Source: a virus
Length of the DNA: 35,055 nucleotides
Virus record (IMG/VR): IMGVR_UViG_3300030329_003428
Coordinates: 1-35,055 of that record
Strand: one strand, 5' to 3'
Shown: one piece after another, positions 2,353 to 35,055 of the stretch
How the letters are laid out: every line of letters begins with the position of its first letter
Numbering within the stretch: the first letter of the stretch is position 1
The notes under the pieces: generated by a model
Told to the model about the DNA's origin: nothing
Seen by the model: the letters and a program-made list of their open reading frames with translations, nothing else
The model's database searches: none
Made by a program: the position numbers and the translations under genes

Positions 2353-3978
2353 ATGGCAAGATTAGATGCAAATTTAACGATTGGAACAGGGCAAGGAGAT
2401 TACCTATGCTCTATGAGTGATAGTTACACAGAAATGGTAACAACAAAACAAAAAGTAGATAATAGTAATGCTTTTATTACAATAGCTACTTTAGGAGCTT
2501 CTACAACAGGTATTGGAGCTAGTGCAGGACAAAGACTTAAAGGAGCAAAACTTATAGTGGTTAAGAATAATAGCCCTGTTACAGTTGAACTCCAATTAAA
2601 ATATGCAGAATGGCACGACAATTCTAATATCGATCAAACAAATAGTATTGATGTTTCAGGTGATGGAGCAAGTACAGAAAGGGTATTAAGTTTGGTTTTG
2701 GGTGCTAATGAATATATTGTTTTTCCAAACCAATGGGCAGTAGGTTATGAAAATGATGCTTCTGCTGGTAATGCTAAAACTATTGATAATAAAGGTGGAT
2801 ATGATGTCAATAGTGGAAAACTTTATGGTGCAGCAGTAACTGATATTGCAACAGCATTAGAAAATGATACCACCACATTCGTTGTTGATGATACAGATTT
2901 TTTTAGGGTTAATGATTTAATTCAAGTAGGTTCTACTACAGGAACTACTGCTACCAATATAGAAATCATGAGAGTTGCATCTATAACTAATACAACAACT
3001 ATGGTTATGGAAAGAGGTTTATATGGCTCAATAACAGCAGACAAAGATACTCAAGATGATGCTACCAATGGTGTGGTAGTTAATGCTAAAGTTTATTTCC
3101 CTTTCTTTAATACACAAGGCGATTATGATGCAGATCATCTTGCTGCTGATGCTACAGGTTATGTCAAAACTAACAAAGATGGTAGATACACAGCACAAAA
3201 TTTATTTGGATATGGGCGAAGTGCTACTTATCCAACAGGGATTGTAAAAGGCTCTTTAGCACTCAAATTTTATAGTTCAGGTTATCAATCTTGGGGAATG
3301 TCAGGTATCTCATCTTCAACTCCTAGTGGATTAGCTGCTTCAACAGCTTATGCTTTGAATATAACAGTAGATGGTGGATCTACTTTTGCTAACTTGTCAT
3401 TTACAACTGATGCTACTAATTTAAATTTTGGTGGAAGTAATGGTATAATAAGCAAAATACAATCTGCTCTTGATACTCAATATTACACATCAGGCAACTT
3501 ATTTGAAAAAAGAGTGATAGTAAATATAGTTAATGGAGATGTAAGATTTACATCAGGAAATAGAACAAGGGTTTCAGCGATTGCTTTAGCTGCACCATCA
3601 AGTGGAACAACACCTTTTGGTGTAGGTAGAATACCTGCCATAGGCAGTATTAATGCAGCAGTAGGTAGCAAACTACCTGATGATACAATATTTGATAGAA
3701 CAGATAATATTGAAAGAAAAAATCAATCTGTTTTTGCTTTTGATGATGGTAAAGGAAAAATACATGGTGCTGCAAGTGGTACTATAAATTATGAAACAGG
3801 TGCTATATCTATAACTTCAACACCTGAAACAGAGTTTGTAGCTAGTTTTAATTATGATTCGGCACATAGTGGTGGTGTAAACGAAACTGCAAACCAACAA
3901 AATACAATCAAAGAAATATCTGCAAGAAGTATGAACAGTAAAATAGATGCAGAAGTAGAAATTTTAGGATTTGTATAA
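2353..3978 (+). CDS. Virion structural protein with beta module (541 aa)
   Basis: A large beta-rich structural protein with an AGGAGAAGAA ribosome site upstream. Residues about 166-243 contain a module with TTFVVDD, DLIQV, IEIMRV and ERGLYG. The same pattern (TTFDVD, DIIKV, EYMRV, NRGILG) occurs at residues 78-148 of the adaptor-like protein at 4213-5472. The pattern is frequent in phage head-tail and baseplate proteins. The N-terminal 130 residues look like a decoration-type domain. Its place between appendage and head-tail genes suggests a virion component. I cannot assign a named family. Confidence 0.75.
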   Translation: MARLDANLTIGTGQGDYLCSMSDSYTEMVTTKQKVDNSNAFITIATLGASTTGIGASAGQRLKGAKLIVVKNNSPVTVELQLKYAEWHDNSNIDQTNSIDVSGDGASTERVLSLVLGANEYIVFPNQWAVGYENDASAGNAKTIDNKGGYDVNSGKLYGAAVTDIATALENDTTTFVVDDTDFFRVNDLIQVGSTTGTTATNIEIMRVASITNTTTMVMERGLYGSITADKDTQDDATNGVVVNAKVYFPFFNTQGDYDADHLAADATGYVKTNKDGRYTAQNLFGYGRSATYPTGIVKGSLALKFYSSGYQSWGMSGISSSTPSGLAASTAYALNITVDGGSTFANLSFTTDATNLNFGGSNGIISKIQSALDTQYYTSGNLFEKRVIVNIVNGDVRFTSGNRTRVSAIALAAPSSGTTPFGVGRIPAIGSINAAVGSKLPDDTIFDRTDNIERKNQSVFAFDDGKGKIHGAASGTINYETGAISITSTPETEFVASFNYDSAHSGGVNETANQQNTIKEISARSMNSKIDAEVEILGFV

Positions 3979-3979
3979 A

Positions 3980-4213
3980 GTGCCTAAAAAAAGGAATTAT
4001 AAGAAAGAATATGCTAAATACCAATCTTCACCTGCAAGAAAGAAATATAGGGCTAAATTAAATGCTTATAATCGTAAAAAAGGCACTTATGGTAATGGAG
4101 ATGGTTTAGATGCTTCACATAAAGGTGGTAGAATAGCTGGATTTGAATCACAATCAAGAAATAGGGCAAGAAAAAAGAATAATAGAATTAAGTATAAAAT
4201 TAGGAGGAAATAA
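3980..4213 (+). CDS. Small basic protein with degenerate HNH-like motif
   Basis: About 77 residues, very rich in Lys and Arg. The GTG at 3980 is chosen because AGGA lies upstream; a TTG at 3971 in the same frame is the alternative and would overlap the previous gene. The core GNGDGLDASHKGGR followed by SQSRNRARKKNNR resembles small phage proteins with GDG-x-D-x-x-HKDGN and RNR motifs, which are related to HNH nucleases. Here the second His/Asn part is poorly kept, so nuclease activity is doubtful. DNA or RNA binding is likely from charge. The stop overlaps the next ATG as TAATG. Confidence 0.7.
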   Translation: MPKKRNYKKEYAKYQSSPARKKYRAKLNAYNRKKGTYGNGDGLDASHKGGRIAGFESQSRNRARKKNNRIKYKIRRK

Positions 4214-7421: not shown

Positions 7422-7846
7422 CAATATTAACTGATGAGTGTGGGGGGTGTCCTTACCACCATTTTCCTTATAAAGCAAAGCCACCTATAAAAATAGATGG
7501 TAAAGATAAACAAATGACATTCAATAGTTTGGATGATGTTTGGAATATTATTGATTTGCTTATAGATGAAATTAGAGAAAATGAAGGCGATTTTGATGAA
7601 GATAAATCGCTTGTTGTACAGATACCATTTTTTACTTGTCCTAATCATTTCTACACAGCAGATATAGGGCAAGATATACAGAGGTACACATATTGCAAAG
7701 ACAATAATGTCCAACCATATTCAGGTAGCTATGGAGAGCAACCTGCAAGATGGGTTAAAAGGCATTTTACAATTAAAAGTGCATTTGCTAAAAAAGAAGG
7801 CATGATGATAGATAAGCAGAAAGCGAAGGCGAAAAGTGGCAAATAA
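7391..7846 (+). CDS. Tail assembly chaperone T part, made by -1 frameshift
   Basis: This frame is -1 relative to the G gene and is open without a stop from the slippery run to 7846. After the shift it reads GKETLQLKIAILTDECGGC, then PYHHFPYKAKPPI and the 110-residue stretch starting MTFNSLDDVW at 7514. The ATG at 7514 has no ribosome site (gataaaca precedes it), which argues for expression as a G-T fusion. GT-type proteins bind the tape measure and recruit tube subunits. Cysteines occur at CGGC and FFTC. The end overlaps the tape measure start by 11 bases. Confidence 0.7.
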   Translation, partial: GGKETLQLKIAILTDECGGCPYHHFPYKAKPPIKIDGKDKQMTFNSLDDVWNIIDLLIDEIRENEGDFDEDKSLVVQIPFFTCPNHFYTADIGQDIQRYTYCKDNNVQPYSGSYGEQPARWVKRHFTIKSAFAKKEGMMIDKQKAKAKSGK

Positions 7847-10736
7847 AATTTCAATACAATTCGCTGCTAGAGGACATACAGGTGTTACAGCAGCAGTTAA
7901 AGCATTAAATCAACAAATAAATAAATTGGCTGTTGCTAACAGCCTATTATCAGGAACTACAAATAAACTTTCAGCAGAACAACAAATTCTAGCAACACAA
8001 TTCCTTAAAACTGCTGCTGCTGCAAAAACATCATCATCATCATTTACTTTATTAAATGGAAGAATGATGAGTATTGTTACCACTACAGCACTTGTTGGTG
8101 GAGGACTTCTTAAAATAACTAGCATAGCTGGTGATGTACAAGAGCAAGTCAATAAAGCAAGAGTTGTGTTTGGTGGTTCATTTTCAGAAATGCAAAAATG
8201 GTCTGAAGAATTTGGTGATAGTGTAAATAGATCAAGGCATAAGCTATTAAATATGGCATCAGGTGTTCAGGATATTCTTGTTCCTATGGGTATGGCAAGG
8301 GGTGAAGCAGCTCAATTATCAAAAGGAATAACTGAATTAGCAGTTGATGTTGGCTCATTTAGTAATGTTGCCTCTACTGATGTTATGAGAGATTTTAATT
8401 CTGCTCTTGTAGGTAATCATGAAACTGTAAGAAAATATGGTATTGTAATATCTGAAACAAGAATGAAGCAAGTTGCCTTAGATGAAGGTATTATAGAAGC
8501 AGGGGAAACACTTACAGACCAACAAAAAATAATGGCAAGAATGTTAATTCTTCAACAAGATTCTTCAGATGCTATAGGTGATGCAACAAGAACTTCAGAT
8601 TCATATTCAAATACAATGCAAGGATTAAAGGACACATTTTATGATACTGCTGTAGTTTGGGGAGAAATATTGTTGCCTGTAGTAAAAGCATTTGCACAAG
8701 TATTAACATGGGCTTTACAGCTTATGCAAAGACCATCAGTTATAGTTGCCTTTGCTATTGCTATAGGAATGTTAGCTCGTAAATTTATATTCACTAATAT
8801 AGCACTTGTAACATTTAAGAAAAGAGTTATAGCTGCTGGGGTTGCAATCAAAGCCTTTAAGGCATCTTTAGGTATTATAGGTTTAGCTATGTTGGCTATA
8901 GAGGCTCTTTGGAGTTTATGGGATTCAGGTGCTGATAAAGGGCCATCTAATGTTGAACAAGCTGCAAAAAGAGCAGAAAAAAGGATGAAGCTATTTAAAG
9001 CAGAAGTTGAAGAAATGGATATCGGCACTATAACCACTAATTATAATCATGCTAAGGCTAAACTTGAAGAATATGAAAATAAATTAGCCAAAGCTGAAAA
9101 AACATTATCAGATTTTCAAAAGGGTGTAGATGATGGAACTATAACTGTCAAGGATTTTGGTGGCGACCTTAATGAAATGAATAAACATATGCGAATATTG
9201 GTTCAAGGGAATGTAATGGCAGAAGTGGCTGTAAAAAACATGACTGAAACTGTAGATATTTATGACCAAAAATTAAATGAAGCTGGATTATCTACTGAAT
9301 CTATTGCAAAAAGTCAAGGAAATCTAATTACAAAACTAGTACAAGTAAAACAAGATTTAGAGCTAACAACCCATGCTTTAGAAAAAGAAGGTAATGCACT
9401 TTCTGAATCAGTTGCATCCTCAGAAATGGCAGCATGGGCTAAAGAAAAGCATGGGATGACTTTGGAAGAATTAGCTAAAAAATACCCTGTATTAATTGAT
9501 GCCTATAATGATCTTAAAGAAGCAGAAGATGAATTAGCTATAGATAGTTTAACTCTTAAATATCAAGATAGAATAGCAGTAATAGAAGGAAGAACAAAAG
9601 CTGAACAAGAAATTCTTAAATTACAAAGAGAGGGTGTAGAATTAACTGAGGAAGAAATTGAAAAAATTACAAATTTAATACAAAAAGAAGAAGAATTAAA
9701 AAAAGCCAAAGGACTTTCTAAAAGAATAAGTGGTTTACAAACAGACATTACAGGATTAGAAGCTGAAATAAAAGACCCTACAAAAGAAGATAAAAGGGAA
9801 AGTGCAACAACTTTAGAAGAATTAAAAAAAGCATCAGCAGATATGGTGGCTGAGTTTGCTAAAAGACATCAAACATTCCTTGATATGGAGAAAGCACATA
9901 AGGATAAATTAGCAAGTTTAAAAGATGGTGAAGTTTGGGTAGGTGAAGCTGAAAGTATGGCTGAAATGCTTGAATATAAGAAAACATTATTAGAAGAAGA
10001 ACTTGATTTTGTGAAAGATAATGAAGCAAAAAAAGAAGAAATAAAACAAGATGCCTTTGATAAAGACCAAGAACGAGAAGCTAAAAAAGCAGAATTAAAA
10101 CAACTAGCTATGGATATGGCTTTTGAAACAGCCTCTGCTGTAACAGGTCATTTACAATCTGAACTAGATTCTCAATTAAAAAGTGAAATGGATCAACTGA
10201 AAAACTCACTTGCATATCAGAAAGCCTCCGATAAACAAAAAGAGGCAATGGAAAAGCAGGTTAAAGAGAAATATCAAAAAAGGCAGACAGCAATATTTAG
10301 ATTAGAACAGGCACAACGATTAGCAAGTGTGGTAATGAGTACAGCAGATGCTATTATGAAAGTTCAAGAACAATGGGGTTGGCCAGCAGGTATTCCATTA
10401 GCTGGGCTTATGGCAGCTATGGGTGCAACACAAGCAGGTGTTATTATGGCACAAAAGCCACCTAAGCTAGCAAAAGGTGGTTTTATTGGTGGAAAGTTAC
10501 ATTCTCAAGGTGGCACTATGATAGAAGCTGAAAGAGGAGAGTTTGTTATGAGCAGAAGTGCTACTGAATCTATTGGATTAGAAACACTCAACCAAATGAA
10601 TAGAACAGGAAATGCTGGTGGTAGTGTAGTAGTATCTGTTCAAGGTAATGTGATGACACAAGATTTTGTTGAAGGCGAACTTGCAGAATCAATTAAAGAA
10701 GCTGTCCGAAGGGGTAGTGATTTTGGGGTTAGTTAA
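7836..10736 (+). CDS. Tape measure protein
   Basis: 966 residues, starting at a GTG with GAAGG upstream. The N-terminal part (to about 290) has the TP901-type tape measure pattern: VQEQVNKARVVFGGSF, a SMASGVQDI-like segment, and SYSNTMQGLKDTFYD before a hydrophobic region at about 280-350 with several possible membrane segments. The middle (about 370-790) is a long Lys/Glu coiled coil. The end has GGFIGGKLHSQGG, IEAERGEFVMSR and SVQGNV, typical tape measure C-terminal blocks. By the usual rule of about 0.15 nm per residue, the tail would be near 145 nm. Confidence 0.93.
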   Translation: MANKISIQFAARGHTGVTAAVKALNQQINKLAVANSLLSGTTNKLSAEQQILATQFLKTAAAAKTSSSSFTLLNGRMMSIVTTTALVGGGLLKITSIAGDVQEQVNKARVVFGGSFSEMQKWSEEFGDSVNRSRHKLLNMASGVQDILVPMGMARGEAAQLSKGITELAVDVGSFSNVASTDVMRDFNSALVGNHETVRKYGIVISETRMKQVALDEGIIEAGETLTDQQKIMARMLILQQDSSDAIGDATRTSDSYSNTMQGLKDTFYDTAVVWGEILLPVVKAFAQVLTWALQLMQRPSVIVAFAIAIGMLARKFIFTNIALVTFKKRVIAAGVAIKAFKASLGIIGLAMLAIEALWSLWDSGADKGPSNVEQAAKRAEKRMKLFKAEVEEMDIGTITTNYNHAKAKLEEYENKLAKAEKTLSDFQKGVDDGTITVKDFGGDLNEMNKHMRILVQGNVMAEVAVKNMTETVDIYDQKLNEAGLSTESIAKSQGNLITKLVQVKQDLELTTHALEKEGNALSESVASSEMAAWAKEKHGMTLEELAKKYPVLIDAYNDLKEAEDELAIDSLTLKYQDRIAVIEGRTKAEQEILKLQREGVELTEEEIEKITNLIQKEEELKKAKGLSKRISGLQTDITGLEAEIKDPTKEDKRESATTLEELKKASADMVAEFAKRHQTFLDMEKAHKDKLASLKDGEVWVGEAESMAEMLEYKKTLLEEELDFVKDNEAKKEEIKQDAFDKDQEREAKKAELKQLAMDMAFETASAVTGHLQSELDSQLKSEMDQLKNSLAYQKASDKQKEAMEKQVKEKYQKRQTAIFRLEQAQRLASVVMSTADAIMKVQEQWGWPAGIPLAGLMAAMGATQAGVIMAQKPPKLAKGGFIGGKLHSQGGTMIEAERGEFVMSRSATESIGLETLNQMNRTGNAGGSVVVSVQGNVMTQDFVEGELAESIKEAVRRGSDFGVS

Positions 10737-13700
10737 TGGCAAATATATCTGATAGACTTAAAGCATCTATAGGAGATGGAATAGTAACATCATTATTTCC
10801 TGTTGTAAGATTTTTTAGAGATGTAGGAATAGGAGATAGCATTAATAATGTTGAATACAATAAAACATTTAATGTTAGTATAAAAGATGTAAATTTAGAA
10901 GCACATCAGGATCAGCCATATCATAGAATACATTTTTTACCTTTATTAACAAAAGCACCAACAATCACATCTAAAGCAGATTTAATCAATAATAAATATA
11001 CTATATCAAGTGTTACTTTATCTATATCTAACACAAAACATGATGGTATTGTTTTTTCTGATATTGTTGATAAATACTTAAATGCTGTATGTAAAATATA
11101 TTTTTGTGCTTCAGGACTTAATCATATAGACCAATGTTATTTAGCATATTCAGGAACAATAGTCAGATACAAACAAAGTCAAACAACATTAGATTTAACA
11201 ATAGAAGATTTAACAAATCAGGTTTTAGAAAATTTAGTTCCTACAAATTTAATACCTGAAAATCAAGGTTACAGAGAAGATAAGGTTGGTGATCCATTTC
11301 CTATGGTTTATGGTTATGTAAGTAAATCTCCAACACTTTTTAGAACAGGTGCAAGTGGTAATTCAGAAGAAGATGAAAGTTTAAATTCAAATTGTTTAAT
11401 ATATGAAAAAGCAGGTGTGGATATGTATAAATATGGAGTTAGTCCATCAGGAAATTTTCAAGGAAAATTTAGTGCTGCCGATTCTTTAGGTGATAATCAT
11501 AGATTGCTTTATGAAGGATATATAGGAAGTAGGCCATACTTATACCTTTATGAAGATAATTATGTAGGGATAAATAGATACCTCCCTTCAACATGGAGTT
11601 ATGATGGTGTAACTTCTAGTGATTTAGGTTCTTCTGCTTTATATGACAACGACAGAACAAATGATCAACCAAAATTAATATTAAATCTTTCAGGTATTGC
11701 ACAAACACTTGACCAACCTAATTTAGTTATTCCAAGTAGAATATATAGGCCTATAAAAAGGGCTACATTTGTAGCTAAACACGATACAGATCAAGGTTCT
11801 GATCCTGATTCAGAAAACAATATGTTTGGTTTTACTTATAAAGATGATAGTATATGGAATCCAAGAGATGAATTTTTGTCAGGAGCATCAGGAAAATCTA
11901 ATGCTGATAGCCCAGCAAAAGATGAATATCTTGCTAATTGGGATGGTGGCGACCAAACTTGGTGGCAACCAACAGAAACAAATGAAAAAGGTTGGGGAGA
12001 ATTAGGTGGTGGCGACCATACTATAACATCTTTTGAAGATGAAAATTGGCCTGAAGGTAGCAGAGAATTTCCTGTAGAGTGGATTCAAAATGACGATTTG
12101 AACACAGGAATACATTTTACAGCCCAAAATAGTGATGGTAGCCACAAAGGTGGAGGATGTTTTGCTTTTTTAGAATTTGATTCTATAGCTGGGTTTGATT
12201 GTTCAACAAAGTTTTTAGCAGATACAAGATATACTTGTCCTGAAGGATTACAAGATTATGATGGGCATAATGCACTTTCTTTAGATCATTTTGCTTTTTG
12301 GGGTGGCAATTATCTCACTTCAGTAAATTGGGGTAATTGGGATGGTAGCCTTGATGAATTGTATTCTACAACTTCTGAACACCATATTCCTTGTGATGCC
12401 ACAAAAGTCAACGATATCGGTATTGATACAGGAAATGGTACAGCTAAATCAATAACAGCAACAAATTTTGGTGAAATAACTTCTATGCCAACTACAGATA
12501 GTTCAAATGGTGTTGCTTGTGGTGCAAGAGAAATTAATCAATATGGTAGTGGACAAGGTGGTGCAACATCTAGTGTTATTTGTGATTTATTTAACTTGTA
12601 TGTTATGCAAGATTTCTTAATTGATGAAGTATCAAAAAAAGATTACTATGTAGATACTTGGGGTAGACAAATTTTACAAGATCCTACACACCCATCATTG
12701 ATTGGTAATGTTACTTTTCATATAATTTCAGGCAAACTTATTATGAAATTATTTCAATCGTATGCTTGGATGCCTGATGACCCTAGATATGATTCTAATA
12801 AAGTTTGGACAGATGAAGAATATCACCAAAAAATAGTAAATGAATTTAAAAGTATTCTTTGGGCTTATGGGGTTGAATATGGGGATATTAATCCTAATAA
12901 TGGACTGCCATACCAATATCCTACTGATAATGGTGAAGTAGATGGTAATATTATAACTAATTTGAAGAACAATGATTTTTACCCTGAAGTAAATGCAGAA
13001 ATTTGGTTGCCTGATGGAGGTGGTCAATGGGATGCTGGTAGTGAAAGTTGGGCAGGATATTACACTTTTGTTAAAGCAGAGTGGGAATATATAGGTGGTG
13101 GGAATAATAACCCATTATTTTCTCCTTATTTATATGTTGAAATAATGGATTGGAATGATTATCTAATTCAGTTAGGTCTAGGGATGTTACCTAATACCAA
13201 CGATCAGATTTGGAACCTTCCTGGAGCTATTCAAGCAACATTAATTCCTCAAGTAAGCCAACTTGTTGCAAACAATAGTAAGCCACATAGACAATTTATT
13301 GATATGCTAACTGAAGAACTTAATTTAAGTTCTAATATTGTTTCTAATACTAATATGTCTTATGTAGATGATTTTTTATATAATTTTGATTATTCATTCA
13401 CAATAGATGAACAGATTGAGGCAAAAAAAATAACAGAAGATTTATTTAAATATTCACCACTAATTGCTTCTTATGATAATACAGGTAAATTTAAATTTTT
13501 AAATATACCAGCTATAGTTAATAGTAGCACACCTATTACCTATATAAAAAATAATGAAGTGGTTAAATATAATTTTGAGCTTACTAAATTAGAGCAGGTT
13601 TACAATCAAGTGAATGTACATTATAGAAAAGATTATGCAGAAAATCAACTTACAAAATCAACAGGATATTCTATAGCAAATACAGATGGTTATGATTTTG

Positions 13701-14962
13701 AAACTTTAGATGATGTTTCATCAGAAATTAATACCAATACTGAATTGATGTATAATATAGATTATTATAACATGAAAAATGAAGAAACAAAATTTGATTT
13801 TCAAACTGAGTATGTTACATGGGAACATACTGCAAGAGAATTACAAAAAAGAATATTGCTTTGGCATTGTAACCAACATTTAATAGTAAAACTTACATTA
13901 CCTCTATCATATTTACATTTAGAAGTGGGTGATATAGTTAGTTTTGATAAATTATTAGATAATAAAAAAGCATTTGGTTATGACTATACTAAACATACTA
14001 ATAAAAATGGGCAATTAATATATCCTGCATTTTTTATAACAAAAATAACAAGAAGTGTAACAAATATAAAATTAGAAATAGAACAACTACATAGAGGGCA
14101 ATATGGATTCCCTAGTGGGTGGGAAGAATTTGAAGGGTTTGAAGATGATGGCAGTATTGATGATGGTGCAGGAAATGATTTAAATGATGATTGGCATATA
14201 CCACAATCTGAAAAATTTGACAATATTACAGATGAATATTTTGAATCTCCAATAGATGATAAAGATATAGAATATTTAACAATAAAATTTACTACAGATA
14301 ATGATTTAACAAATCAACAATTTGTGAATTTAGATGTAAATACAAATACTGAAAAAGATTGGCAATATGATATTTGGGTTGATAATATTAACCAAGATTT
14401 TACCATAGAAGATGAATTAGGTAATATTGTTGAATATAGTGCAGGACAATATGGTGAAATGGAAATACCAGCAAGTAGGTTGTTACACCATAAATTAAGC
14501 AGAAATTCTGATTCAACAAATAGAACTAATACAAGTGGAAATATAATGATTTCTAAAAAGTTTGATTTTAAGCATACGATTAATACTACAGACGATTCTC
14601 CTATTAAGGTTGATTATAAAATAAAAGTATATATACCTTCAAATTCAGAAAATCCTATTGAAGGTGATGCTGTGATTGATGAGAATATTACTACTAATAT
14701 TATGCTACAAAAAATAGAATTATTTTATCAAAAATCAACTTTATTAGAAGGTAATCAAGATGAAGAAGAAGACCAATCTTTGTTTGAGATGATGGATTTA
14801 AACAATGATGGTATTGTTAATGTTCAAGATATAATGATTCTCATTCAAATTATATTAGGTATGCAAGATCCACCTGATGGACAAACAATAGACTTTAATG
14901 GTGATGGTATAACAAATATTTCTGAGATATTAATTATGGTTAATCAAGTGATGGGAGATTAA
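10736..14962 (+). CDS. Tail-tip / central fibre protein with C-terminal dockerin repeats
   Basis: 1408 residues, coupled to the tape measure by TAATG. The first 200 residues are beta-rich and include the block VGDPFPMVYGYVSKSP, as in tail-tip hub proteins. Residues about 880-1140 contain mixed helix and strand segments (FIDMLTEELNL, LEVGDIVSFDKLL) of the J-like hub type. The last 55 residues are two Ca-binding loops: D1354-L-N-N-D-G-I-V-N-V-Q-D and D1386-F-N-G-D-G-I-T-N-I-S-E, each followed by a hydrophobic helix, which is the dockerin type I pattern D-x-N-x-D-G-x-x-N-x-x-D. The domain is unusual for a phage tail protein. Confidence 0.85.
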   Translation: MANISDRLKASIGDGIVTSLFPVVRFFRDVGIGDSINNVEYNKTFNVSIKDVNLEAHQDQPYHRIHFLPLLTKAPTITSKADLINNKYTISSVTLSISNTKHDGIVFSDIVDKYLNAVCKIYFCASGLNHIDQCYLAYSGTIVRYKQSQTTLDLTIEDLTNQVLENLVPTNLIPENQGYREDKVGDPFPMVYGYVSKSPTLFRTGASGNSEEDESLNSNCLIYEKAGVDMYKYGVSPSGNFQGKFSAADSLGDNHRLLYEGYIGSRPYLYLYEDNYVGINRYLPSTWSYDGVTSSDLGSSALYDNDRTNDQPKLILNLSGIAQTLDQPNLVIPSRIYRPIKRATFVAKHDTDQGSDPDSENNMFGFTYKDDSIWNPRDEFLSGASGKSNADSPAKDEYLANWDGGDQTWWQPTETNEKGWGELGGGDHTITSFEDENWPEGSREFPVEWIQNDDLNTGIHFTAQNSDGSHKGGGCFAFLEFDSIAGFDCSTKFLADTRYTCPEGLQDYDGHNALSLDHFAFWGGNYLTSVNWGNWDGSLDELYSTTSEHHIPCDATKVNDIGIDTGNGTAKSITATNFGEITSMPTTDSSNGVACGAREINQYGSGQGGATSSVICDLFNLYVMQDFLIDEVSKKDYYVDTWGRQILQDPTHPSLIGNVTFHIISGKLIMKLFQSYAWMPDDPRYDSNKVWTDEEYHQKIVNEFKSILWAYGVEYGDINPNNGLPYQYPTDNGEVDGNIITNLKNNDFYPEVNAEIWLPDGGGQWDAGSESWAGYYTFVKAEWEYIGGGNNNPLFSPYLYVEIMDWNDYLIQLGLGMLPNTNDQIWNLPGAIQATLIPQVSQLVANNSKPHRQFIDMLTEELNLSSNIVSNTNMSYVDDFLYNFDYSFTIDEQIEAKKITEDLFKYSPLIASYDNTGKFKFLNIPAIVNSSTPITYIKNNEVVKYNFELTKLEQVYNQVNVHYRKDYAENQLTKSTGYSIANTDGYDFETLDDVSSEINTNTELMYNIDYYNMKNEETKFDFQTEYVTWEHTARELQKRILLWHCNQHLIVKLTLPLSYLHLEVGDIVSFDKLLDNKKAFGYDYTKHTNKNGQLIYPAFFITKITRSVTNIKLEIEQLHRGQYGFPSGWEEFEGFEDDGSIDDGAGNDLNDDWHIPQSEKFDNITDEYFESPIDDKDIEYLTIKFTTDNDLTNQQFVNLDVNTNTEKDWQYDIWVDNINQDFTIEDELGNIVEYSAGQYGEMEIPASRLLHHKLSRNSDSTNRTNTSGNIMISKKFDFKHTINTTDDSPIKVDYKIKVYIPSNSENPIEGDAVIDENITTNIMLQKIELFYQKSTLLEGNQDEEEDQSLFEMMDLNNDGIVNVQDIMILIQIILGMQDPPDGQTIDFNGDGITNISEILIMVNQVMGD

Positions 14963-14963
14963 T

Positions 14964-15509
14964 ATGGGTATAATTGCAATAAATAGAAATAAAGCTCACC
15001 AAGAAAAAACTAAAAAATCATCCTATGAAGGCTCTACTATTAGCTTAACTATTGAAGATGGAGAATGTTCAGTAGATTCAACAATAGAGATAGCTGGAAT
15101 AGAAATACATTTAAGTGGTGGTGCAAACATCAGTCCTAGTATGCCTGAAGGTTGGGTTTTTGAAGGTTATAAAAATAAGTTACTATCTTTTTCAACTAAT
15201 CTACAGACAATAAATAATAGGGTTATTTTTAGATACGAAGGACACCTTGAAATAAGTAAAGCATACTTTTTTGATAGAGATGGACAACCTATTCCATACA
15301 AGATTGTTTTTAGTAAAACAAAAATGATAGACCAAGAGTGGACATTTGATACTGAAGATGTAAAATGGAGGGAACATGGCACTCAACCAAAAAGAACAAA
15401 ATCAGGCATAAGTTACCGAAAGCAAAAAGGCAACCCATTAAACGATTTGCCTGAGTATCAAGAATTAAAAAGACAAATTAGAAATAAAATTACGAGAGGT
15501 GGTTACTAA
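14964..15509 (+). CDS. Tail-associated protein, unknown (181 aa)
   Basis: 181 residues starting one base after the tail-tip stop. The N-terminal two thirds look like a small beta domain (STISLTIEDGECSV, STIEIAGIEIHLSGG, NRVIFRYEGHLEISKAYFFDRDG). The C-terminal 50 residues are basic (KQKGNPLNDLPEYQELKRQIRN). It is tightly packed between two large tail genes and overlaps the next ATG, so it is probably a tail or baseplate component. I do not recognise a family. Confidence 0.7.
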   Translation: MGIIAINRNKAHQEKTKKSSYEGSTISLTIEDGECSVDSTIEIAGIEIHLSGGANISPSMPEGWVFEGYKNKLLSFSTNLQTINNRVIFRYEGHLEISKAYFFDRDGQPIPYKIVFSKTKMIDQEWTFDTEDVKWREHGTQPKRTKSGISYRKQKGNPLNDLPEYQELKRQIRNKITRGGY

Positions 15510-16906
15510 TGGGCAAAATGGTAGGAGTACCAAGATTCTATATTGATATACCAAGTTTTTTATATAATGTGGGGTATTCAAGGTTCTATGACACATCAAA
15601 TTTCGGTGGGTACAAACTATTAAACATGAATCCAGCAGAACAAAAATTATCAAAAGTAGATAATGACTATTTAACAACAAATGGCTGGTTTACAATAAAT
15701 AAGTTCGGAAAAGAGCAATTTCATAGAACATCTTATCCTATAAATTTTATGGCAATATTAAACCACAATTTTGCTTATTTAACTGCAAACAAAGAAACAG
15801 CACTTGAATTTGGTAGTCAGTTTCAGCCCGGATCTAGCCCTGTAACTATATGGGCTAAAAGGCAAAGAGCTTCGCAAAACGATCCTGCTAATGAAATAGG
15901 TTTTGAAAACACACATAATATATTAAATGCTTTTCCAACAAATGAGGCAGGAGGTGATGCTGCAAGTATAAGCCCTGAATGGAATGGTACAAGCATATTT
16001 GAATTTGATGAAATTGATGGTGTTTGGAGTGCTTTTGGAATAGGTTTAAGTAAAGGATCAAGTCAAGAAGATGGTCTTTGGTATAATGGGTTAGAAGGTG
16101 ATTTAACATATTTTACAGAAGGATTTGAAAACGATTTCGGACAAGGTTTAGGGTGTGGTAGTATTGTAGTTGGAAGATATTATGATTGTCCAAGTTCCCC
16201 TGATTTAAGTTTGTCTATGGAAAGAAACTTTGATGGTATTAAAACTACAAAAACATTAGGTGGAAAAAATCTAACCAACATTTATTATGATAGCCCAACA
16301 GAATGGACTATGAATGGTGTTAGGGGTTATCCTGATGAAGGTGAAGCTGATCCATCAGTAGGATTTGATAAAAATGTATTTCAATATCCACAATTTGAAT
16401 TAGATTATCCTTCAGGTTCATCAGCTACATCACAAAATGGCGAATATGATGAAAGGGGTGCAGGTTACTATAAACATAGAGCCAAAAGTGGTTTAGGCAG
16501 AAAAGGTTTAAGAACTTGGGATTTAACATTTAGCTACATAAGTGATGATGATGCTTTTATGGCTTTTGAAGCTAGTGCAGCACCTTTCTATATTAATGCA
16601 ACTCATTCATCTGTAACACAAGGTAGGTTATCAGATGGTGAAATTCCTACAGACAATGGAAGAAAAGTATCAAGCTATGGATCTGCTGATGAAGGAAAAA
16701 CAAACCCAATGTTAGCAGATAATAGTTTTAATTTTGTGGTAAATTGTACTTTAGGTGGAACTTTGCCCTTCATCTTCCAGCCTGATAATACCAATAATAA
16801 TCCTGATCAGTTTGCTATATGTAAATTTAAAGATGGTAGCTATAAAGTTGAACAAATAGCTTACAATGCTTATCGTGTAAAACTTACGATTGAGGAGGTT
16901 GCTTAG
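15509..16906 (+). CDS. Distal tail structural protein, unknown (465 aa)
   Basis: 465 residues, the last gene of the rightward block. Rich in aromatic residues, Gly and Asp, and mostly beta: PRFYIDIPSFLYNVGY, FINKFGKEQFHRTSYPINF-type segments, and an end IAYNAYRVKLTIEEVA. Similar aromatic, beta-rich proteins close the tail module of many siphoviruses as distal tail or fibre-base proteins. Its last 23 bases overlap the 3' end of the opposing early operon, with no terminator between them. Confidence 0.72.
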   Translation: MGKMVGVPRFYIDIPSFLYNVGYSRFYDTSNFGGYKLLNMNPAEQKLSKVDNDYLTTNGWFTINKFGKEQFHRTSYPINFMAILNHNFAYLTANKETALEFGSQFQPGSSPVTIWAKRQRASQNDPANEIGFENTHNILNAFPTNEAGGDAASISPEWNGTSIFEFDEIDGVWSAFGIGLSKGSSQEDGLWYNGLEGDLTYFTEGFENDFGQGLGCGSIVVGRYYDCPSSPDLSLSMERNFDGIKTTKTLGGKNLTNIYYDSPTEWTMNGVRGYPDEGEADPSVGFDKNVFQYPQFELDYPSGSSATSQNGEYDERGAGYYKHRAKSGLGRKGLRTWDLTFSYISDDDAFMAFEASAAPFYINATHSSVTQGRLSDGEIPTDNGRKVSSYGSADEGKTNPMLADNSFNFVVNCTLGGTLPFIFQPDNTNNNPDQFAICKFKDGSYKVEQIAYNAYRVKLTIEEVA

Positions 16907-17694: not shown

Positions 17695-18384
17695 TTATCT
17701 TTCCTTTTTAAAAAGTGTCCAAGTAGCTGGGCCATAATCCCCTGCTGTTAATATCTCTCTACATAGTTCAGATGGAACAATACTTCTTAAATAATTACCC
17801 TTTAATCCCTGTGTTCCTGTTTGACTTCCTCTTGGTGCTACTGCATGATCACAATTAGGATTTCCATTTTTACATTCTTTTCTTGGTATCCAATTAAAAT
17901 CATTAGTCCATATATCTGTAGGTTTTGCTCTTTTTATAGTTTCTTCAGGAGAAAAATATTGACAATACCATATTGTTCTTCTGTATGTAGTCCAGCCCAT
18001 AACAGGCAATTTTCTTAATTTCCCTCTTGGGTTTTCTATATAATATTTTAAATAAGGATTTTTGTTTAAAAAATATCTTATAATTGAATTGCTTTTTTCT
18101 ACAATATCTACACCTAATATAGCTTCTTTTGTTTTGGGTGTATGGTCTTTATTCCAATGATGCCCAATAGATGCAACACTAAAATAAGTGCAAGGAGGAC
18201 TTGCCCATATAATATCAGGAACACCAAACTCTTTTTCTATATCTGTTGCATTGACATCTAATATATCTTTAACCAAATCTATTTTATCAAATGCTTTAAA
18301 ATCTGTAGTATAGGTTTCGTGTCCTAATTGTTCAGCAACCTTTGAAAAACTCCTAGATCCTGCAAATAATTCCAATACCTTCAT
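17695..18384 (-). CDS. C5 cytosine methyltransferase-like protein
   Basis: 229 residues, short for a C5 methyltransferase. Motif I (VLELFAGSRSFSK, residues 3-15), motif IV (ASPPC65TYFS) with the catalytic Cys, and motif VI (E117NPRG) are clear. The usual large target-recognition part is reduced, and the closing motif is GNYLRSIVPSELCREI. Such compact proteins occur in many phages and prophages and are taken to methylate cytosine against host restriction. It overlaps the HNH gene by ATGA. Distinct from the DNMT3-like enzyme at 20189-21112. Confidence 0.8.
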   Translation of the reverse strand: MKVLELFAGSRSFSKVAEQLGHETYTTDFKAFDKIDLVKDILDVNATDIEKEFGVPDIIWASPPCTYFSVASIGHHWNKDHTPKTKEAILGVDIVEKSNSIIRYFLNKNPYLKYYIENPRGKLRKLPVMGWTTYRRTIWYCQYFSPEETIKRAKPTDIWTNDFNWIPRKECKNGNPNCDHAVAPRGSQTGTQGLKGNYLRSIVPSELCREILTAGDYGPATWTLFKKER

Positions 18385-19626: not shown

Positions 19627-20214
19627 TTAACCCTCTATTCTTGTTACTTTATGTGTATACTTATCTAATGATTCTATATTATATTGTAAATTAGAGCCTT
19701 TTTTCCTCACTCTTGAATGGCCTATGCAATTTGCTCTCCATAACCAAGATCCTCGTATAACTTCTTTTGTTCTATCGTAAATAATCATAGAATCACCAAT
19801 TTTAAGTTTTCTTAAACTTTCAATGCAAGAATGTTTATAAATCCCTGCATTACCACTATAAAATTTACCAATCATTTTATCTTGACAAGTATTACAAAAT
19901 TCTAAATTGCTTCCTTTAAGAATGTTTTGACTAAAAGATTTTAATGGTTTATAATTACCACAAGCATCACAATCAATCTTTATTTTGTCTTTTTTGTTTT
20001 GTTTATTAACATATATTCTATTTTTAGTATAATACGATAATTCTTCTATTAATCTATTTGCTTGTTTTTTATTTAAATGTCCCCAATGGTCGCAAAACTG
20101 AGAGGAACTTAGACTACCTTTTTTATATACTCTTATAGAAAACTTACCTCCTCTTTCAGATGTTTTTAATTCAAGATTCTTTTTACCCTCAGGATTTTCT
20201 ACTATTAATTTCAT
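19627..20214 (-). CDS. Zinc-ribbon protein, unknown (195 aa)
   Basis: 195 residues. Its ATG lies inside the methyltransferase C-terminus, with AGGAGATAATA before it. An N-terminal beta part (KFSIRVYKKGSLSSSQF) is followed by helix KKQANRLIEELSYYTKNR. A four-Cys zinc ribbon comes next: CDACGNYKP and, about 25 residues later, FCNTCQD. The C-terminal half has a GDSMIIYDRT segment. Overlap with the DNMT3-like gene suggests co-expression; it could be a DNA-binding partner, but there is no direct evidence. Confidence 0.65.
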   Translation of the reverse strand: MKLIVENPEGKKNLELKTSERGGKFSIRVYKKGSLSSSQFCDHWGHLNKKQANRLIEELSYYTKNRIYVNKQNKKDKIKIDCDACGNYKPLKSFSQNILKGSNLEFCNTCQDKMIGKFYSGNAGIYKHSCIESLRKLKIGDSMIIYDRTKEVIRGSWLWRANCIGHSRVRKKGSNLQYNIESLDKYTHKVTRIEG

Positions 20215-21112
20215 TATTATCTCCTATATAACTAAATATATGTTCTATTATTGGTAGTGTCCAACCATCTCCAAGTAAATTCCCTGCTTCAGAACGAGTA
20301 ATACAATCGCACCAATTATCAGGAAATCCTTGTAGCCTACATAACTCTATTTTATTTGCAGTTCTTAAATTATTATTATCTTCTATAACAGTTATCATTC
20401 CTGTTGTTGAACTTCTTTTTTTTAAATAATCTTGTTTATAGTTTATCTCATTAATTTGCCCACTATTAGTATTTAAACAGCTGTGCTTTAATTTTTTTAA
20501 TTTTCCACTAAAAATAATATCTTGAAGCATGATTTTTCTATCTTTGGGTTGTGGTATATCAGTTATAATATCGCCAAACAAACCATCTTGTCTTGTTCTA
20601 ATATTACTCCAATAATATCTATCTCTTAATTGTGCAGTTACAAGTGAAGAATTAATTCTAACAGGATATACACCTAATGCCCTTGACATTATCCCAACAT
20701 CTTTTACATTAGCAGATCCAACATTTTCTTGTAAAAACAAGACATTAGGATTTAATTCTTTTACATGATTTAAAATATCTACAAAAACAAAAAATAAACT
20801 ACTTCTACTACCTTCTAATCCTTTTCTTACAGACTGATTGCCAGCACATGATAAATCTTGACAAGGACTACCACTTAACACCATATCAACACTTTTCCAA
20901 TCAATATCCCATTCTTTCCATTTTTCTACATCTCCAATTTGTATTGTATCAGGATAATGATGTTGAGTTAGTTTTATTGCAGCAGGTTTTATTTCTGATG
21001 AATAATACTTATCAACCTTAATACCTACATTATCTAATGCAGTATGTCCTGTTGACATTCCATTGAATAAACTCAATACTACTATACCTTTATTCTTGTT
21101 GATCTTCTTCAT
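20189..21112 (-). CDS. DNMT3-like C5 cytosine DNA methyltransferase
   Basis: 307 residues with all key C5 motifs: I VLSLFNGMSTG (12-22), SE at 39-40, IV GSPC84QDLS with the catalytic Cys, VI LQEN (127-130), VIII Q161LRDR165YYW, and X GNLLGDGWTLPIIEHIF near the end. The motif I and IV wording, and KVDKYYSSEI, are closer to the DNMT3 group than to Dcm. It probably methylates phage DNA to resist restriction; the target site cannot be read from sequence. Coupled with a 39-codon frame upstream and the zinc-ribbon gene downstream. Confidence 0.88.
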   Translation of the reverse strand: MKKINKNKGIVVLSLFNGMSTGHTALDNVGIKVDKYYSSEIKPAAIKLTQHHYPDTIQIGDVEKWKEWDIDWKSVDMVLSGSPCQDLSCAGNQSVRKGLEGSRSSLFFVFVDILNHVKELNPNVLFLQENVGSANVKDVGIMSRALGVYPVRINSSLVTAQLRDRYYWSNIRTRQDGLFGDIITDIPQPKDRKIMLQDIIFSGKLKKLKHSCLNTNSGQINEINYKQDYLKKRSSTTGMITVIEDNNNLRTANKIELCRLQGFPDNWCDCITRSEAGNLLGDGWTLPIIEHIFSYIGDNNEINSRKS

Positions 21113-26089: not shown

Positions 26090-26569
26090 ATGGCTAAAGG
26101 CTGGATTAATACATTAAAAGGTAATATTGTTAAAGATAAAGACTTCTTACATAAAGAATGTGTAGATATAAGAGATTCTGAATGGGGTGCAGTTAAGTCT
26201 AAATTGGCTAAATATATGAAGATCCCTGAAGCAGTAGGTGTTGCTTGTAATCAAGTAGGTTTTAATCTTAATGGTTTTGTAGTTGATTTGTATGCAGATA
26301 AGCCTATTAAAATAAAAAAGCTAATGTTCTTTAAGAATCCTACAATAGAATTAAAAGGCACTAAATTTAAACATGAAGAACTATGTCTATCTTGTAGTAG
26401 TAACCATATAGTAGAAAGAACTAATAAGGTTGTTATAACAGACGATACACATGGAACACAAGAGTTTAGTGGGTATTTGGCAGTAATAATACAACATGAA
26501 TACAATCACATAAAAGGCATACTAATATCAGATAAGAAAGGACAACATGATAAGAGTAACACTAACTAA
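26090..26569 (+). CDS. def: Peptide deformylase
   Basis: 159 residues with all three deformylase motifs: I, G50-V-A-C-N-Q55 (usual GxGxAAxQ); II, E97-L-C99-L-S101 (usual EGCLS), the Cys being a metal ligand; III, H136-E-Y-N-H140 (HExxH), with the two His ligands and catalytic Glu. The enzyme removes the formyl group from new proteins. Phage copies are known in marine phages and are thought to favour rapid processing of phage or host photosystem and other proteins. Good AAAGGATAAT ribosome site. It overlaps the next small gene by 23 bases. Confidence 0.92.
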   Translation: MAKGWINTLKGNIVKDKDFLHKECVDIRDSEWGAVKSKLAKYMKIPEAVGVACNQVGFNLNGFVVDLYADKPIKIKKLMFFKNPTIELKGTKFKHEELCLSCSSNHIVERTNKVVITDDTHGTQEFSGYLAVIIQHEYNHIKGILISDKKGQHDKSNTN

Positions 26570-29806: not shown

Positions 29807-31037
29807 TTTTTTTCTGTGCCTCTTGAATTGTTAAATCTTTGTTATATTCTACCATAAGTTCTGCTGGTGATACTAAATTTAATTGTAATCTATGATTATC
29901 AAGAGCTATCTGATCAGGTATTGTCATTGGATAATCAGGCTCATTAAAATCTATCTTTAATTTTTCAGGAAGTGAAATTTTATGAGCTTTTGCCATATTT
30001 TTTTCTATATGATACAATTTATGCTCATATAAATTCCATAAACTTAAATCATCTTGATAATCTTCAAATCTTTCTAAATCTTTAATTTTTAAAGCAATTC
30101 CACTTGGTGTTTCACCACCATCTTGAGCAAATTGAACAAATAAGTGGTTATTTTGTGCTACAAGATCCATTTGGAACTTAACATTCTCAATTACCTTTTC
30201 AATATCACCTGCTGGTGATTTAATATCATAATCAGCATCTGATGGTAACTCTAAAATAACATCTGATCCAAATCTTTGCTTATTACCAAGATCAGCACCA
30301 CTTACTATAGGTTGTCCAAACATTTGAAATCTTAATCCAAGCTGCATTTCAGTCATAGTTATATTGATGTGTTCATTTGCATTTACAACATCATTTGCAC
30401 CCTCAACAAAAAATGAATCACATTGATGTTCCCTGTGAACGAAAGTGAAAGGTAAAATTCCATAACCATGTTCTTTTTGTTCTAAAATTGAACCATCTTC
30501 ATCAAATATAACATATTCATAGTCATTCCAATGTATATATTGCAATTTATCTGAATTTGAAACATCTGATGTATAATTCATTAATGGGTAAGTTAATGCT
30601 ATAGGTTTAAATGGATCATTACCAAAGAAAGGGTGGAAGTAATAAATAGGTTGATAATCAAAATAAGGCATTTCTTCATGCTCATCTATCATAACTCTGA
30701 CTGCTATTGTTCCAATCAGTCTTGTCATTCTTTCAATATGCTTCATTTTAGTGTCTTTTAAAATTGTAAGATCCTTATATCGCTTATTTACATTCCTATC
30801 AGCACCTACTGTGTAAATCCTAGACATTTTATTGATAAATTTTTTAGTTATATTCGCCTCGTAGGGTGGAACTTCCCTAAAAGCATCTAAATCAAATTTT
30901 GATGATATATAAGAAGAAGTATTGTTACCATTATAATAGTCAAGCAATTTGTTGATATATCTTTCCCTGCTATTATGATTAAAAATTTTTAATTTTTTTA
31001 AACTTTCCTGTATTACATCTGCTCCATTGTATATCAT
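29703..31037 (-). CDS. Portal protein
   Basis: 444 residues, 4-base overlap with TerL (ATGA), GAGGAAAAG upstream. It has the plan of siphovirus portals: N-terminal helix RERYINKLLDYYNGN, EANITKKFINKMSRIYTVG, a wing region, GILPFTFVHREHQCDSF, DVVNANEHINITMTEMQLGL, and a closing helical clip with SGIALKIKDLERF and LYEHKLYHIEKNMAK. The portal ring forms the DNA entry vertex. The Gln-rich tail (QEAQKKIGENKQQNQKQ) overlaps another frame. Confidence 0.88.
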   Translation of the reverse strand: MIYNGADVIQESLKKLKIFNHNSRERYINKLLDYYNGNNTSSYISSKFDLDAFREVPPYEANITKKFINKMSRIYTVGADRNVNKRYKDLTILKDTKMKHIERMTRLIGTIAVRVMIDEHEEMPYFDYQPIYYFHPFFGNDPFKPIALTYPLMNYTSDVSNSDKLQYIHWNDYEYVIFDEDGSILEQKEHGYGILPFTFVHREHQCDSFFVEGANDVVNANEHINITMTEMQLGLRFQMFGQPIVSGADLGNKQRFGSDVILELPSDADYDIKSPAGDIEKVIENVKFQMDLVAQNNHLFVQFAQDGGETPSGIALKIKDLERFEDYQDDLSLWNLYEHKLYHIEKNMAKAHKISLPEKLKIDFNEPDYPMTIPDQIALDNHRLQLNLVSPAELMVEYNKDLTIQEAQKKIGENKQQNQKQSIFSQARQSVEGTQGFQTEPTQE

Positions 31038-32344
31038 CTTTTCCTCACTTTAATTTCTCTGTTTTTAATTGGGAAGTGGTTAATAAAAAAATACCTTAAC
31101 TGATCACACCCATGATCGTGGTAACCATCTTTTAGTGGTTCAGGTTTCAATTCTTTTCCTTCTTGTGCTTCAGGGTATCTGTAACTTTCTAAATCTTCTG
31201 CCATACCCATACAATTATTATTTAAATGCAGGTATCTTTCACCATTAGCATTTTCTATAAAACTTCTAACATGGTTTATACCAGCAGATATGCTTCTTGA
31301 TGCTTTATCTGTAATGGTATTTACAATAATACCTTTTTTCCTTAATACTTCTATATCACCAATACCTGATTGGCTTGATGCTTGTAGTCCTGCTGGATCA
31401 CCATAATATCTCATTACTCTGTATGGTTTTGTTTTTATCATTTCTGCTAATTCATCTGTCTTAATATTTGTTTTGTGTGCTATTTCATCTATCATATTTA
31501 TGTGCCATTCACCATTTATTCTGTATGTTTGATACCACCCCACACTTGGCATACGATAACCAAAGTCAATACTGCAAAAAACAGGAAGACGAGGGTTGTA
31601 AGGATAATAACCGACATCAATGTTTCTATCAAAAGGATAAACCCTGCCCTCAAAACTTGTAAACTGTGCTGCATACTCTTGGTCAAAAAGTTCTTTAGAC
31701 ATATTCCTTTTTCTTTCAACCAAAAACTGATCGCTTTTACCATTTGGAAAAGCATATTGGTTTTCCCAAGATGGTGCTTGGTGTGATTCCCATAATTCAT
31801 CATTTTTTCCAAGTAAGTATAAATCATATAACCAATTAAACCCTTCAGGTGTTGAAATAAAAACTGCTTTACCTTTTCTGTCAGATAGAGTAGGAGATAA
31901 ATACATATCCCATATTCTAGGCTTTACTTTAGCTGCTTCATCAATTATAAGTAGATCCAAACCCTCACCAACAAGTGAATCAGGATTGTCTGCTGATTTA
32001 GCCTCTACAGTAGTTCCCCATTTAAACTTTATGTATCTTTCTTTTTCTGAAGCCTTAACTATATCGTTTGAATGTCCAACAACCATCAGTTGCCATATTT
32101 CTCTAAACATTAGATCAGCTTTATCGTAAGAAAGGCCTACTAACCATATTCGTTTGTTAGGCTGGGAGGCATAAAATGTCGCCTCCATAGCACTCGCAGT
32201 CGTTTTTCCGAATCGCCTCCCACAAACCATCACAAAAAATCTTGCAGATTCCTTTGTAGGAAAATGCAATTTTTCTTGCCCTGCATGAGGTTTATAACCT
32301 AAATAATCAAACCATTTTTGCTTATAATTATTTAAATCTTGCAT
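31034..32344 (-). CDS. terL: Terminase large subunit
   Basis: 436 residues from ATG 32344, chosen for the AAAGGTGG ribosome site; the frame runs upstream but without a better start. ATPase: Walker A G42-R-R-F-G-K-T-T, Walker B L-L-I-I-D135-E136, and S-T-P (164-166) coupling motif. RNase-H-like nuclease: S-I-D260-F-G-Y, Y-G-D316-P-A-G, and H-D-H-G-C-D-Q-L-R-Y near the end. It powers DNA translocation into the head and cuts the concatemer. The gene runs leftward, opposite to the capsid gene. Confidence 0.95.
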   Translation of the reverse strand: MQDLNNYKQKWFDYLGYKPHAGQEKLHFPTKESARFFVMVCGRRFGKTTASAMEATFYASQPNKRIWLVGLSYDKADLMFREIWQLMVVGHSNDIVKASEKERYIKFKWGTTVEAKSADNPDSLVGEGLDLLIIDEAAKVKPRIWDMYLSPTLSDRKGKAVFISTPEGFNWLYDLYLLGKNDELWESHQAPSWENQYAFPNGKSDQFLVERKRNMSKELFDQEYAAQFTSFEGRVYPFDRNIDVGYYPYNPRLPVFCSIDFGYRMPSVGWYQTYRINGEWHINMIDEIAHKTNIKTDELAEMIKTKPYRVMRYYGDPAGLQASSQSGIGDIEVLRKKGIIVNTITDKASRSISAGINHVRSFIENANGERYLHLNNNCMGMAEDLESYRYPEAQEGKELKPEPLKDGYHDHGCDQLRYFFINHFPIKNREIKVRKR

Positions 32345-32435
32345 AAATCCACCTTTATAAGTTAAGTTACAATGTATGGAAAATGCAAGATATAGTATTT
32401 TGCGATAACAAATATACAAGATATAGGAGGGCAGT
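32345..32435. promoter_or_regulatory. Divergent promoter region, packaging vs capsid blocks
   Basis: The 91-bp gap separates TerL (leftward) and the scaffold gene (rightward). Rightward, TTACAA (32367-32372) and TATAGT (32391-32396) are spaced 18 bp, and AGGAGGGCAGT precedes the ATG. Leftward, a TTGCAT lies 17 bp from the weak TTAACT. Only the ribosome sites are strong; the promoter boxes are tentative. The gap must in any case feed both late directions unless transcription comes from further away. Confidence 0.4.
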
Positions 32436-32954
32436 ATGTCCGAAGAAAACAAAGTATCTAATGAAGCAGTAGTGGATAGTGGTGCAGAGAATGTTACTCA
32501 GGAATCAGCTCAGAATGAGTACATAGCAGAAAGCAAGAAGTATAGAAAAAGAGCTCAGGAAGCTGAATCTAAGTTAGCTGAACTAAACAAGCAGTTGGAA
32601 GCTCAAGAAAATGCTAAATTAAAGGAAAAAGAAGAATTTAAAACTTTAGCTGAAAAGCTAGAGGCTGAAAATACTTCCCTTAATGATTACAAACAAAGGT
32701 ATGAAAGCATAGTTGAGCAAAGAAAATCTGCTTTATTAGAACAGTTACCTGAAGATAAGCGAGAACATTTTAAAGACAAAGAATTAGATGTATTAGAGTT
32801 TATGGTATCTGAACTTGGTTCTAAAACTACAAATGAGCCAACAGCTCGTGGAACAGTTAAAGCCAAAAGCCCTATTGAGGGTTGGGGTAAAATGTCGCAA
32901 GATGACAAAAAGAAGCATTGGAAAGATATTATAAAATCTTATACTAATAAATAA
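32436..32954 (+). CDS. Capsid scaffolding protein
   Basis: 172 residues, acidic, with no hydrophobic core. A long coiled coil (KKYRKRAQEAESKLAELNKQ, NAKLKEKEEFKTLAEKLE) is followed by DYKQRYESIVEQRK and a basic C-terminus with WGKMSQDDKKKHWKDIIKSY. This is the usual composition of phage scaffolds, which guide shell assembly and leave before packaging. It lies directly before the capsid gene with strong AGGAGGG. A short inverted repeat AACCCT/AGGGTT at 32954-32992 separates the two genes. Confidence 0.85.
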   Translation: MSEENKVSNEAVVDSGAENVTQESAQNEYIAESKKYRKRAQEAESKLAELNKQLEAQENAKLKEKEEFKTLAEKLEAENTSLNDYKQRYESIVEQRKSALLEQLPEDKREHFKDKELDVLEFMVSELGSKTTNEPTARGTVKAKSPIEGWGKMSQDDKKKHWKDIIKSYTNK

Positions 32955-34657: not shown

Positions 34658-35055
34658 TTGGCTAAAGGTGTTGTTAAAAGAGTAATCGTAACACCTGACA
34701 AACATTTTCCTTTACATGATCAACCAGCAATAAATGTGTTGTGTAAAACTATTGAGCTGACGAGGTGTGATGCTTATGTGGATCTTGGTGATGTGGGAGA
34801 ATGGTCAGCATTTAGTGCTTGGAAATATAAAAGAAAAAAAGCACCTCCTCTTGAGTTCTTAATAGAAGATTTTGAAAAAGACATAAAAGATGTCAATGCT
34901 GGTATGGATCAAATTGATGAGGCATTGGACAAAGTGGATTGTAAGGAAAAATACATCACAGAAGGCAACCATGATAATTGGTTGAATATGTGTGTAGAGA
35001 AATATCCTTATATACCTCAATATAAGTTCAAAAATGCTGTAAAGCTAAAAGAACA
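34658..35055 (+). CDS. Calcineurin-like metallophosphoesterase, N-terminal part
   Basis: The TTG start is directly after the lysozyme TAA, with GAGG upstream. Residues V-I-V-T-P-D14-K-H16-F-P-L-H-D form the first metal motif (D-x-H), and Y-V-D-L-G-D45-V-G-E-W is the second, with G-E in place of the common G-D-x-x-D(R). The part ends at the window edge and continues at position 2. The joined protein is about 259 residues. It is not a tail protein by any seen motif; nucleic acid or phosphoprotein substrates are equally possible. Confidence 0.85.
   Translation, partial: MAKGVVKRVIVTPDKHFPLHDQPAINVLCKTIELTRCDAYVDLGDVGEWSAFSAWKYKRKKAPPLEFLIEDFEKDIKDVNAGMDQIDEALDKVDCKEKYITEGNHDNWLNMCVEKYPYIPQYKFKNAVKLKE
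34957..35054. repeat. Terminal direct repeat, right copy
   Basis: Identical to bases 1-98 (see the left copy). The final base 35055 differs from base 99. This 98-base redundancy lies inside the phosphoesterase gene, which makes an assembly overlap of a circular map more likely than a functional virion end. Confidence 0.95.

Follow-up and report, generated by a model that had tools for sequence, protein, structure and literature searches.

Cohesin-dockerin binding is among the strongest of protein-protein interactions; it is known from cells and is widely used in protein engineering. In the cellulosomal type I pairs, and in the CaDoc0917/CaCohA2 system of Clostridium acetobutylicum (6kgc/6kgf/6kg9), a dockerin with two calcium loops is bound by a nine-stranded cohesin partner. 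Cohesin and dockerin modules also exist outside of cellulosomes in bacteria and archaea, including ANME proteins (PMC9012536). Searches of an open-access library for dockerins in phage tails, virions and viral genomes turned up no report of a phage pair of the kind described here, in which a dockerin ends a probable tail-tip protein and the next gene encodes a predicted cohesin-fold protein.

The locus resembles the two-loop dockerin and nine-stranded cohesin of the cellulosomal and CaDoc0917/CaCohA2 pairs. Unlike in cellulosomal pairs, the phage dockerin sits on a tail protein, not on an enzyme or scaffoldin, and the phage cohesin is small, stand-alone and without a detectable sequence match, its aligned core spanning about 95-105 residues versus 140-170 in most solved cohesins. 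We class the phage pair as one that works like a cohesin-dockerin pair and not as a cellulosome: the latter has a scaffoldin with several cohesins, whereas the phage has a single cohesin-fold domain, in a protein of 181 aa. With the non-cellulosomal modules of archaea and bacteria it shares a use outside cellulose degradation and a fold (2xdh of Archaeoglobus fulgidus, at Z 10.0, ranks with the best fold matches), but those modules belong to cellular proteins, whereas the phage pair is viral, with its genes adjacent and conserved as a unit. Among tail components, the closest parallel is with the distal tail and fibre adaptors of siphophages, which the cohesin-fold protein resembles as a small post-hub protein that, judging from its position, probably links the hub to tip parts; it differs from them in its proposed attachment through a cohesin-dockerin interface.

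Genome setting and the tail-tip gene

The window, by which we mean the whole stretch of DNA that was analysed (35 kb of IMG/VR record IMGVR_UViG_3300030329_003428, 32% G+C), is probably a circular or terminally redundant, nearly complete record, as sequence from near its start (within 1-100) is seen again at its end (about 34950-35055). Terminase, major head protein and tape-measure genes are all present, and the kind of records suggests that the phage family, an uncultured one, is probably marine. A Roseobacter MAG was considered as host and set aside, its TerL match in a search of genome contigs being only 25%; a search of 200 genomes of that MAG's phylum with the phage cohesin profile gave no match and is uninformative on the host. 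Elsewhere in the window, two DNA methyltransferase-type genes lie on the opposite strand (17695-18384 and 20189-21112, both minus; PHROGs phrog_757 and phrog_116, with PF00145 in the second), and the product of 26090-26569 (plus) looks by eye like a peptide deformylase, with the motifs GVACNQVG, EELCLS and QHEYNH.

The gene that carries the dockerin directly follows the tape-measure gene (Table 1). Its product is probably the tail tip, an identity that is probable given the tape-measure gene just upstream and a sub-threshold match of residues 850-1180 to Phage-tail_3 (PF13550), found in 14 of 34 members with a best E of 8e-4. Conservation in the tip protein is concentrated in the N-terminal region and in region 880-1120. 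Searches with the N-terminal domain gave no usable match for identity, and region 851-1180 had no match in the PDB or PHROG. With its relatives the large terminase (31034-32452) shares up to 90% identity and the tip protein (in the window module 10736-16906) only about 35-45%; as judged from sequence identity, the tail-tip module is diverging much faster than the packaging genes.

Table 1. Features of the tail module, in coordinates of the window
Feature	Position	Strand	Basis or detail
Tape-measure protein	7836..10736	+	PHROGs tape-measure families, best E 1.8e-8
Probable tail-tip (hub) protein, 1408 aa, dockerin at C-terminus	10736..14962	+	ORF; stop codon 14960-14962
Most conserved internal region, residues 851-1180, putative hub fold	13286..14275	+	Alignment of relatives; PF13550
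Dockerin type I domain	14792..14950	+	PF00404, 38.4 bits (DNA-level search)
First calcium loop DLNNDGIVNVQD	14795..14830	+	Starts at residue 1354; IMILIQIILG after loop
Second calcium loop DFNGDGITNISE	14891..14926	+	Starts at residue 1386; ILIMVNQVMG after loop
Predicted cohesin-fold protein, 181 aa	14964..15509	+	AlphaFold2 model, fold searches; 20 homologues at same place
Cohesin-fold core, residues 24-119	15033..15320	+	Ranges aligned to solved cohesins
465-aa protein, third gene of module	15509..16906	+	Homologues downstream of cohesin

Dockerin at the C-terminus of the tip protein

An earlier note on this DNA had placed a pair of dockerin-type calcium loops at the end of the protein; both loops are complete and lie at the residues and coordinates given in Table 1. 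Its assignment of a dockerin is borne out by Pfam: Dockerin_1 (PF00404) matches residues 1353-1405 of the whole protein at 31.4 bits (E 2.2e-7), above the curated cut-off of 22.9 bits, and the last 140 residues at 37.2 bits, whereas single EF-hand models all fall below their own cut-offs. By this profile match, the C-terminus of the tip protein is a member of the Dockerin_1 family, well above chance. Together with conservation in relatives, the match supports the broader idea that a tail-tip protein could carry a calcium-bound module for docking at its C-terminus.

Relatives were collected from IMG/VR with TerL as anchor (80 loci) and with the 465-aa protein as anchor (six loci). The tip protein, which is too divergent, recovered no relatives from IMG/VR as a single query, and neither it nor the dockerin consensus found any in the INPHARED phage collection. 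Among 39 related viral records, 23 have a tip homologue and the same 23 have the dockerin, 22 of them above the cut-off; the records without a tip homologue are mostly fragments. A Dockerin_1 match is likewise present in all 61 non-identical C-termini upstream of cohesin genes. The dockerin is retained though the tip proteins are only about 28-45% identical, and it persists even at a TerL identity of 74% and a tip identity of just 28%. Because it occurs in all 23 records that hold the tip protein, we regard the dockerin, by sequence comparison, as a fixed part of the tip-protein family.

The calcium chemistry is conserved as well. Two loops are recognised in 59 of 60 distinct dockerins, and the ligand positions are nearly invariant across the loops: position 1 is D in 118/118, 3 is N in 100/118, 5 is D in 112/118, 9 is N in 111/118 and 12 is D or E in 117/118. 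In both repeats, loop positions 10 and 11, which are the recognition residues in cellulosomal dockerins, are V/I-L in most cases; the two repeats of a dockerin have a mean identity of 51%. Two-fold symmetry of the dockerin underlies dual binding modes (PMC12484212); given the identity between repeats and their matching positions 10 and 11, such symmetry may be present in the phage dockerins too. The dockerin fold is seen in a model of a relative (L195, not the window copy), in which residues 1-60 superpose on 6kg9 (Z 8.5, 30% identity, 2.2 A over 59 residues) and each repeat has one helix.

The adjacent gene and its linkage to the dockerin

The next gene begins 2 bases past the stop codon of the tip gene. 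A resemblance of its product to cohesins was spotted from sequence ahead of any structure modelling. The AlphaFold2 model has a confident beta-sandwich core, with pLDDT about 94 over most of that core, and a disordered tail; cohesins or cohesin-bearing chains take ranks 1-16 in a Foldseek search of the PDB (best E 2.5e-4). With VIA-align the top 41/41 rows are cohesins at Z 8.2-10.5 (best 6kgf_C, 100 residues, 2.5 A) and unrelated sandwiches appear only at Z 8.0 and below, so that the margin is moderate and the ranking uniform. Sequence methods gave no such signal: the protein has no match to Pfam Cohesin (PF00963), a PDB profile search found no cohesin chains, and hhalign to one clear cohesin (L214) returned nothing. 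L214 is itself a Pfam cohesin, yet it reaches PDB cohesins only at E 0.21, and cohesins are strongly divergent. On the modelled structure, the 181-aa product is a predicted cohesin-fold protein; we use this label rather than cohesin since the sequence searches linked it to no known cohesin. Its C-terminal tail is conserved, predicted to be disordered, basic and often ends in GGY. In a subgroup (L203, L204 and L207) the protein has a C-terminal extension past the core with the conserved motif DGTLYxGxYHIHxxDNxAMTGxxHTEDSQDLY.

Profiles of the phage cohesin retrieved 71 viral loci, and the upstream ORF ends in a dockerin in 71 of 71; a search with the hub region alone retrieved 80 loci. When the loci are pooled, a dockerin followed by a cohesin in the next gene is found in 76 of 79 distinct tip C-termini. 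The exceptions are L230, where the contig ends 54 bases past the tip, L205 and L110. In L205 the tip lies in two ORFs (L205:726-4056), through a frameshift or because the gene is truly split: the first, with the hub, stops at 3500, and the second, which overlaps it (3493-4056), has the dockerin, with the cohesin next. L110 (record G012) has tip, dockerin and cohesin joined in a single ORF, a natural fusion whose dockerin scores 19.9 bits, below the Pfam cut-off, and has one clear loop; as a single case, this may possibly be an assembly error. The cohesin start lies no more than 20 nt from the tip stop for 67 of 74 sets, and in 11 loci the two genes share a reading frame and are separated by a lone TAA. 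A mirror-tree comparison found dockerin and cohesin distances weakly correlated given the hub (partial r 0.13, permutation p 0.004), but the correlation of dockerin with hub given cohesin is 0.18, and the test does not discriminate co-evolution of dockerin and cohesin.

The third gene of the module encodes the 465-aa protein, which has no family match and no usable match for identity. Its homologues carry an internal second dockerin in two relatives (L005/L099/L207 and L208), which suggests that the cohesin may sit between two dockerin proteins. With these internal-dockerin genes, at L005:7794-9608 and L208:4311-5630, the tail module has two plugs instead of one, and the third gene is present in a second copy in record G004 (L005).

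The pair was modelled as one chain of 174 aa from L195, comprising dockerin, linker and cohesin, with 10 paired rows and 29 cohesin-only rows; purely for modelling, the intervening TAA was treated as G, and read-through is not claimed. The model reached pLDDT 88 and pTM 0.85, against rough estimates of pTM 0.54 for an undocked and 0.83 for a docked chain. This is as expected if the halves are docked and is supportive, not proof, as the model is of a relative and not the window pair, its linker of about 15 residues forces proximity, and pTM is silent on geometry. The cohesin half has nine strands, in the cohesin topology, and matches 6kgc at Z 11.0; both halves are best matched by the CaDoc0917/CaCohA2 system. 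Foldseek neighbours of the phage cohesin model in BFVD (E down to 7e-10) are the uncharacterised A0A516LSB7, A0A516MGQ5, A0A516LNX3 and others. Of these, A0A516LNX3 (1389 aa) can be aligned to the dockerin-cohesin model across 171 columns and is possibly another natural fusion.

A proposed calcium-dependent joint in the distal tail

We consider it likely that the small cohesin protein is held on the tail tip by a cohesin-dockerin joint that the virus itself encodes and that depends on calcium. The dockerin of the tip protein would bind the cohesin-fold protein of the next gene in the distal tail, and the two partners are probably made together, since their genes abut or overlap. With two calcium ions bound, the dockerin would fold and place its two helices against one face of the cohesin's nine-stranded sandwich. 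Trimeric hubs are usual in siphophage and GTA tails, and if this hub is trimeric, three dockerins would hold three cohesin adaptors. The adaptor's basic C-terminal tail, or its top, could contact the next tip part, perhaps the 465-aa protein. The evidence for binding of the dockerin by the cohesin consists of the linkage, the natural fusion and the pTM of the one-chain model; physical binding, its dependence on calcium, presence of the cohesin protein in the virion and the adaptor's cargo are inferred. A weakened dockerin where the partner is covalently attached, as in the single case of L110, is predicted by a connector role.

The same gene arrangement could serve assembly alone. The cohesin protein is small, has a basic tail that is predicted to be disordered, and is encoded beside its target and probably co-translated with it; it might act as a chaperone or cap that covers the sticky end of the dockerin and is absent from the finished virion, and the present data do not separate an assembly factor from a virion part. 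We nevertheless think this unlikely, as the one-ORF fusion would make the cohesin a permanent part in that phage, and the dockerin on a third protein in two relatives better fits a structural connector. The partner could also lie outside the virus: the earlier note had envisaged docking on a cohesin-bearing surface protein of the host, which would be a form of host recognition, and dockerins do link proteins to bacterial cell surfaces, a role also proposed in ANME archaea (PMC12484212, PMC9012536). This proposal found no support and now appears very unlikely, because the virus almost always encodes a cohesin-fold partner of its own right beside the dockerin, in the following gene for 76 of 79 distinct tips. 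The least likely of these readings would see in the dockerin no more than a cap, stabilised by calcium, at the C-terminus of the tip, and in its neighbour an unrelated tail protein of the beta-sandwich type. Phage tails often contain Ig-like sandwiches, and no cohesin is detected here by sequence methods, but the fold match is specific, with cohesins in 41/41 top rows and other sandwiches at Z 8.0 and below, and coincidence would have to account for the co-occurrence with the dockerin, for the fusion and for the one-chain model alike.

A more speculative extension of the cohesin-dockerin joint, which we hold to be rather unlikely, is that it acts both as a calcium switch and as an exchange point. 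If so, the dockerin would stay loose where free calcium is low, as in the host cytoplasm, and would lock onto the adaptor only once lysis has released it into calcium-rich seawater. A standard plug and socket would also let phages swap tip and adhesion modules; such swapping is consistent with tips that are about 35-45% identical where the large terminases are 85-90%.

An obligatory adjacent cohesin-dockerin pair among the tail genes of an uncultured but widespread family of viruses would be, as far as we found, the first viral use of this joint. With it, two unannotated tail genes would gain a function. The proposed joint predicts that tail assembly or stability would be calcium-dependent, and this small, divergent pair could be tested in vitro without growing the phage. 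The calcium-dependent click joint of cellulose-degrading complexes has apparently been reused for the assembly of a virus tail.
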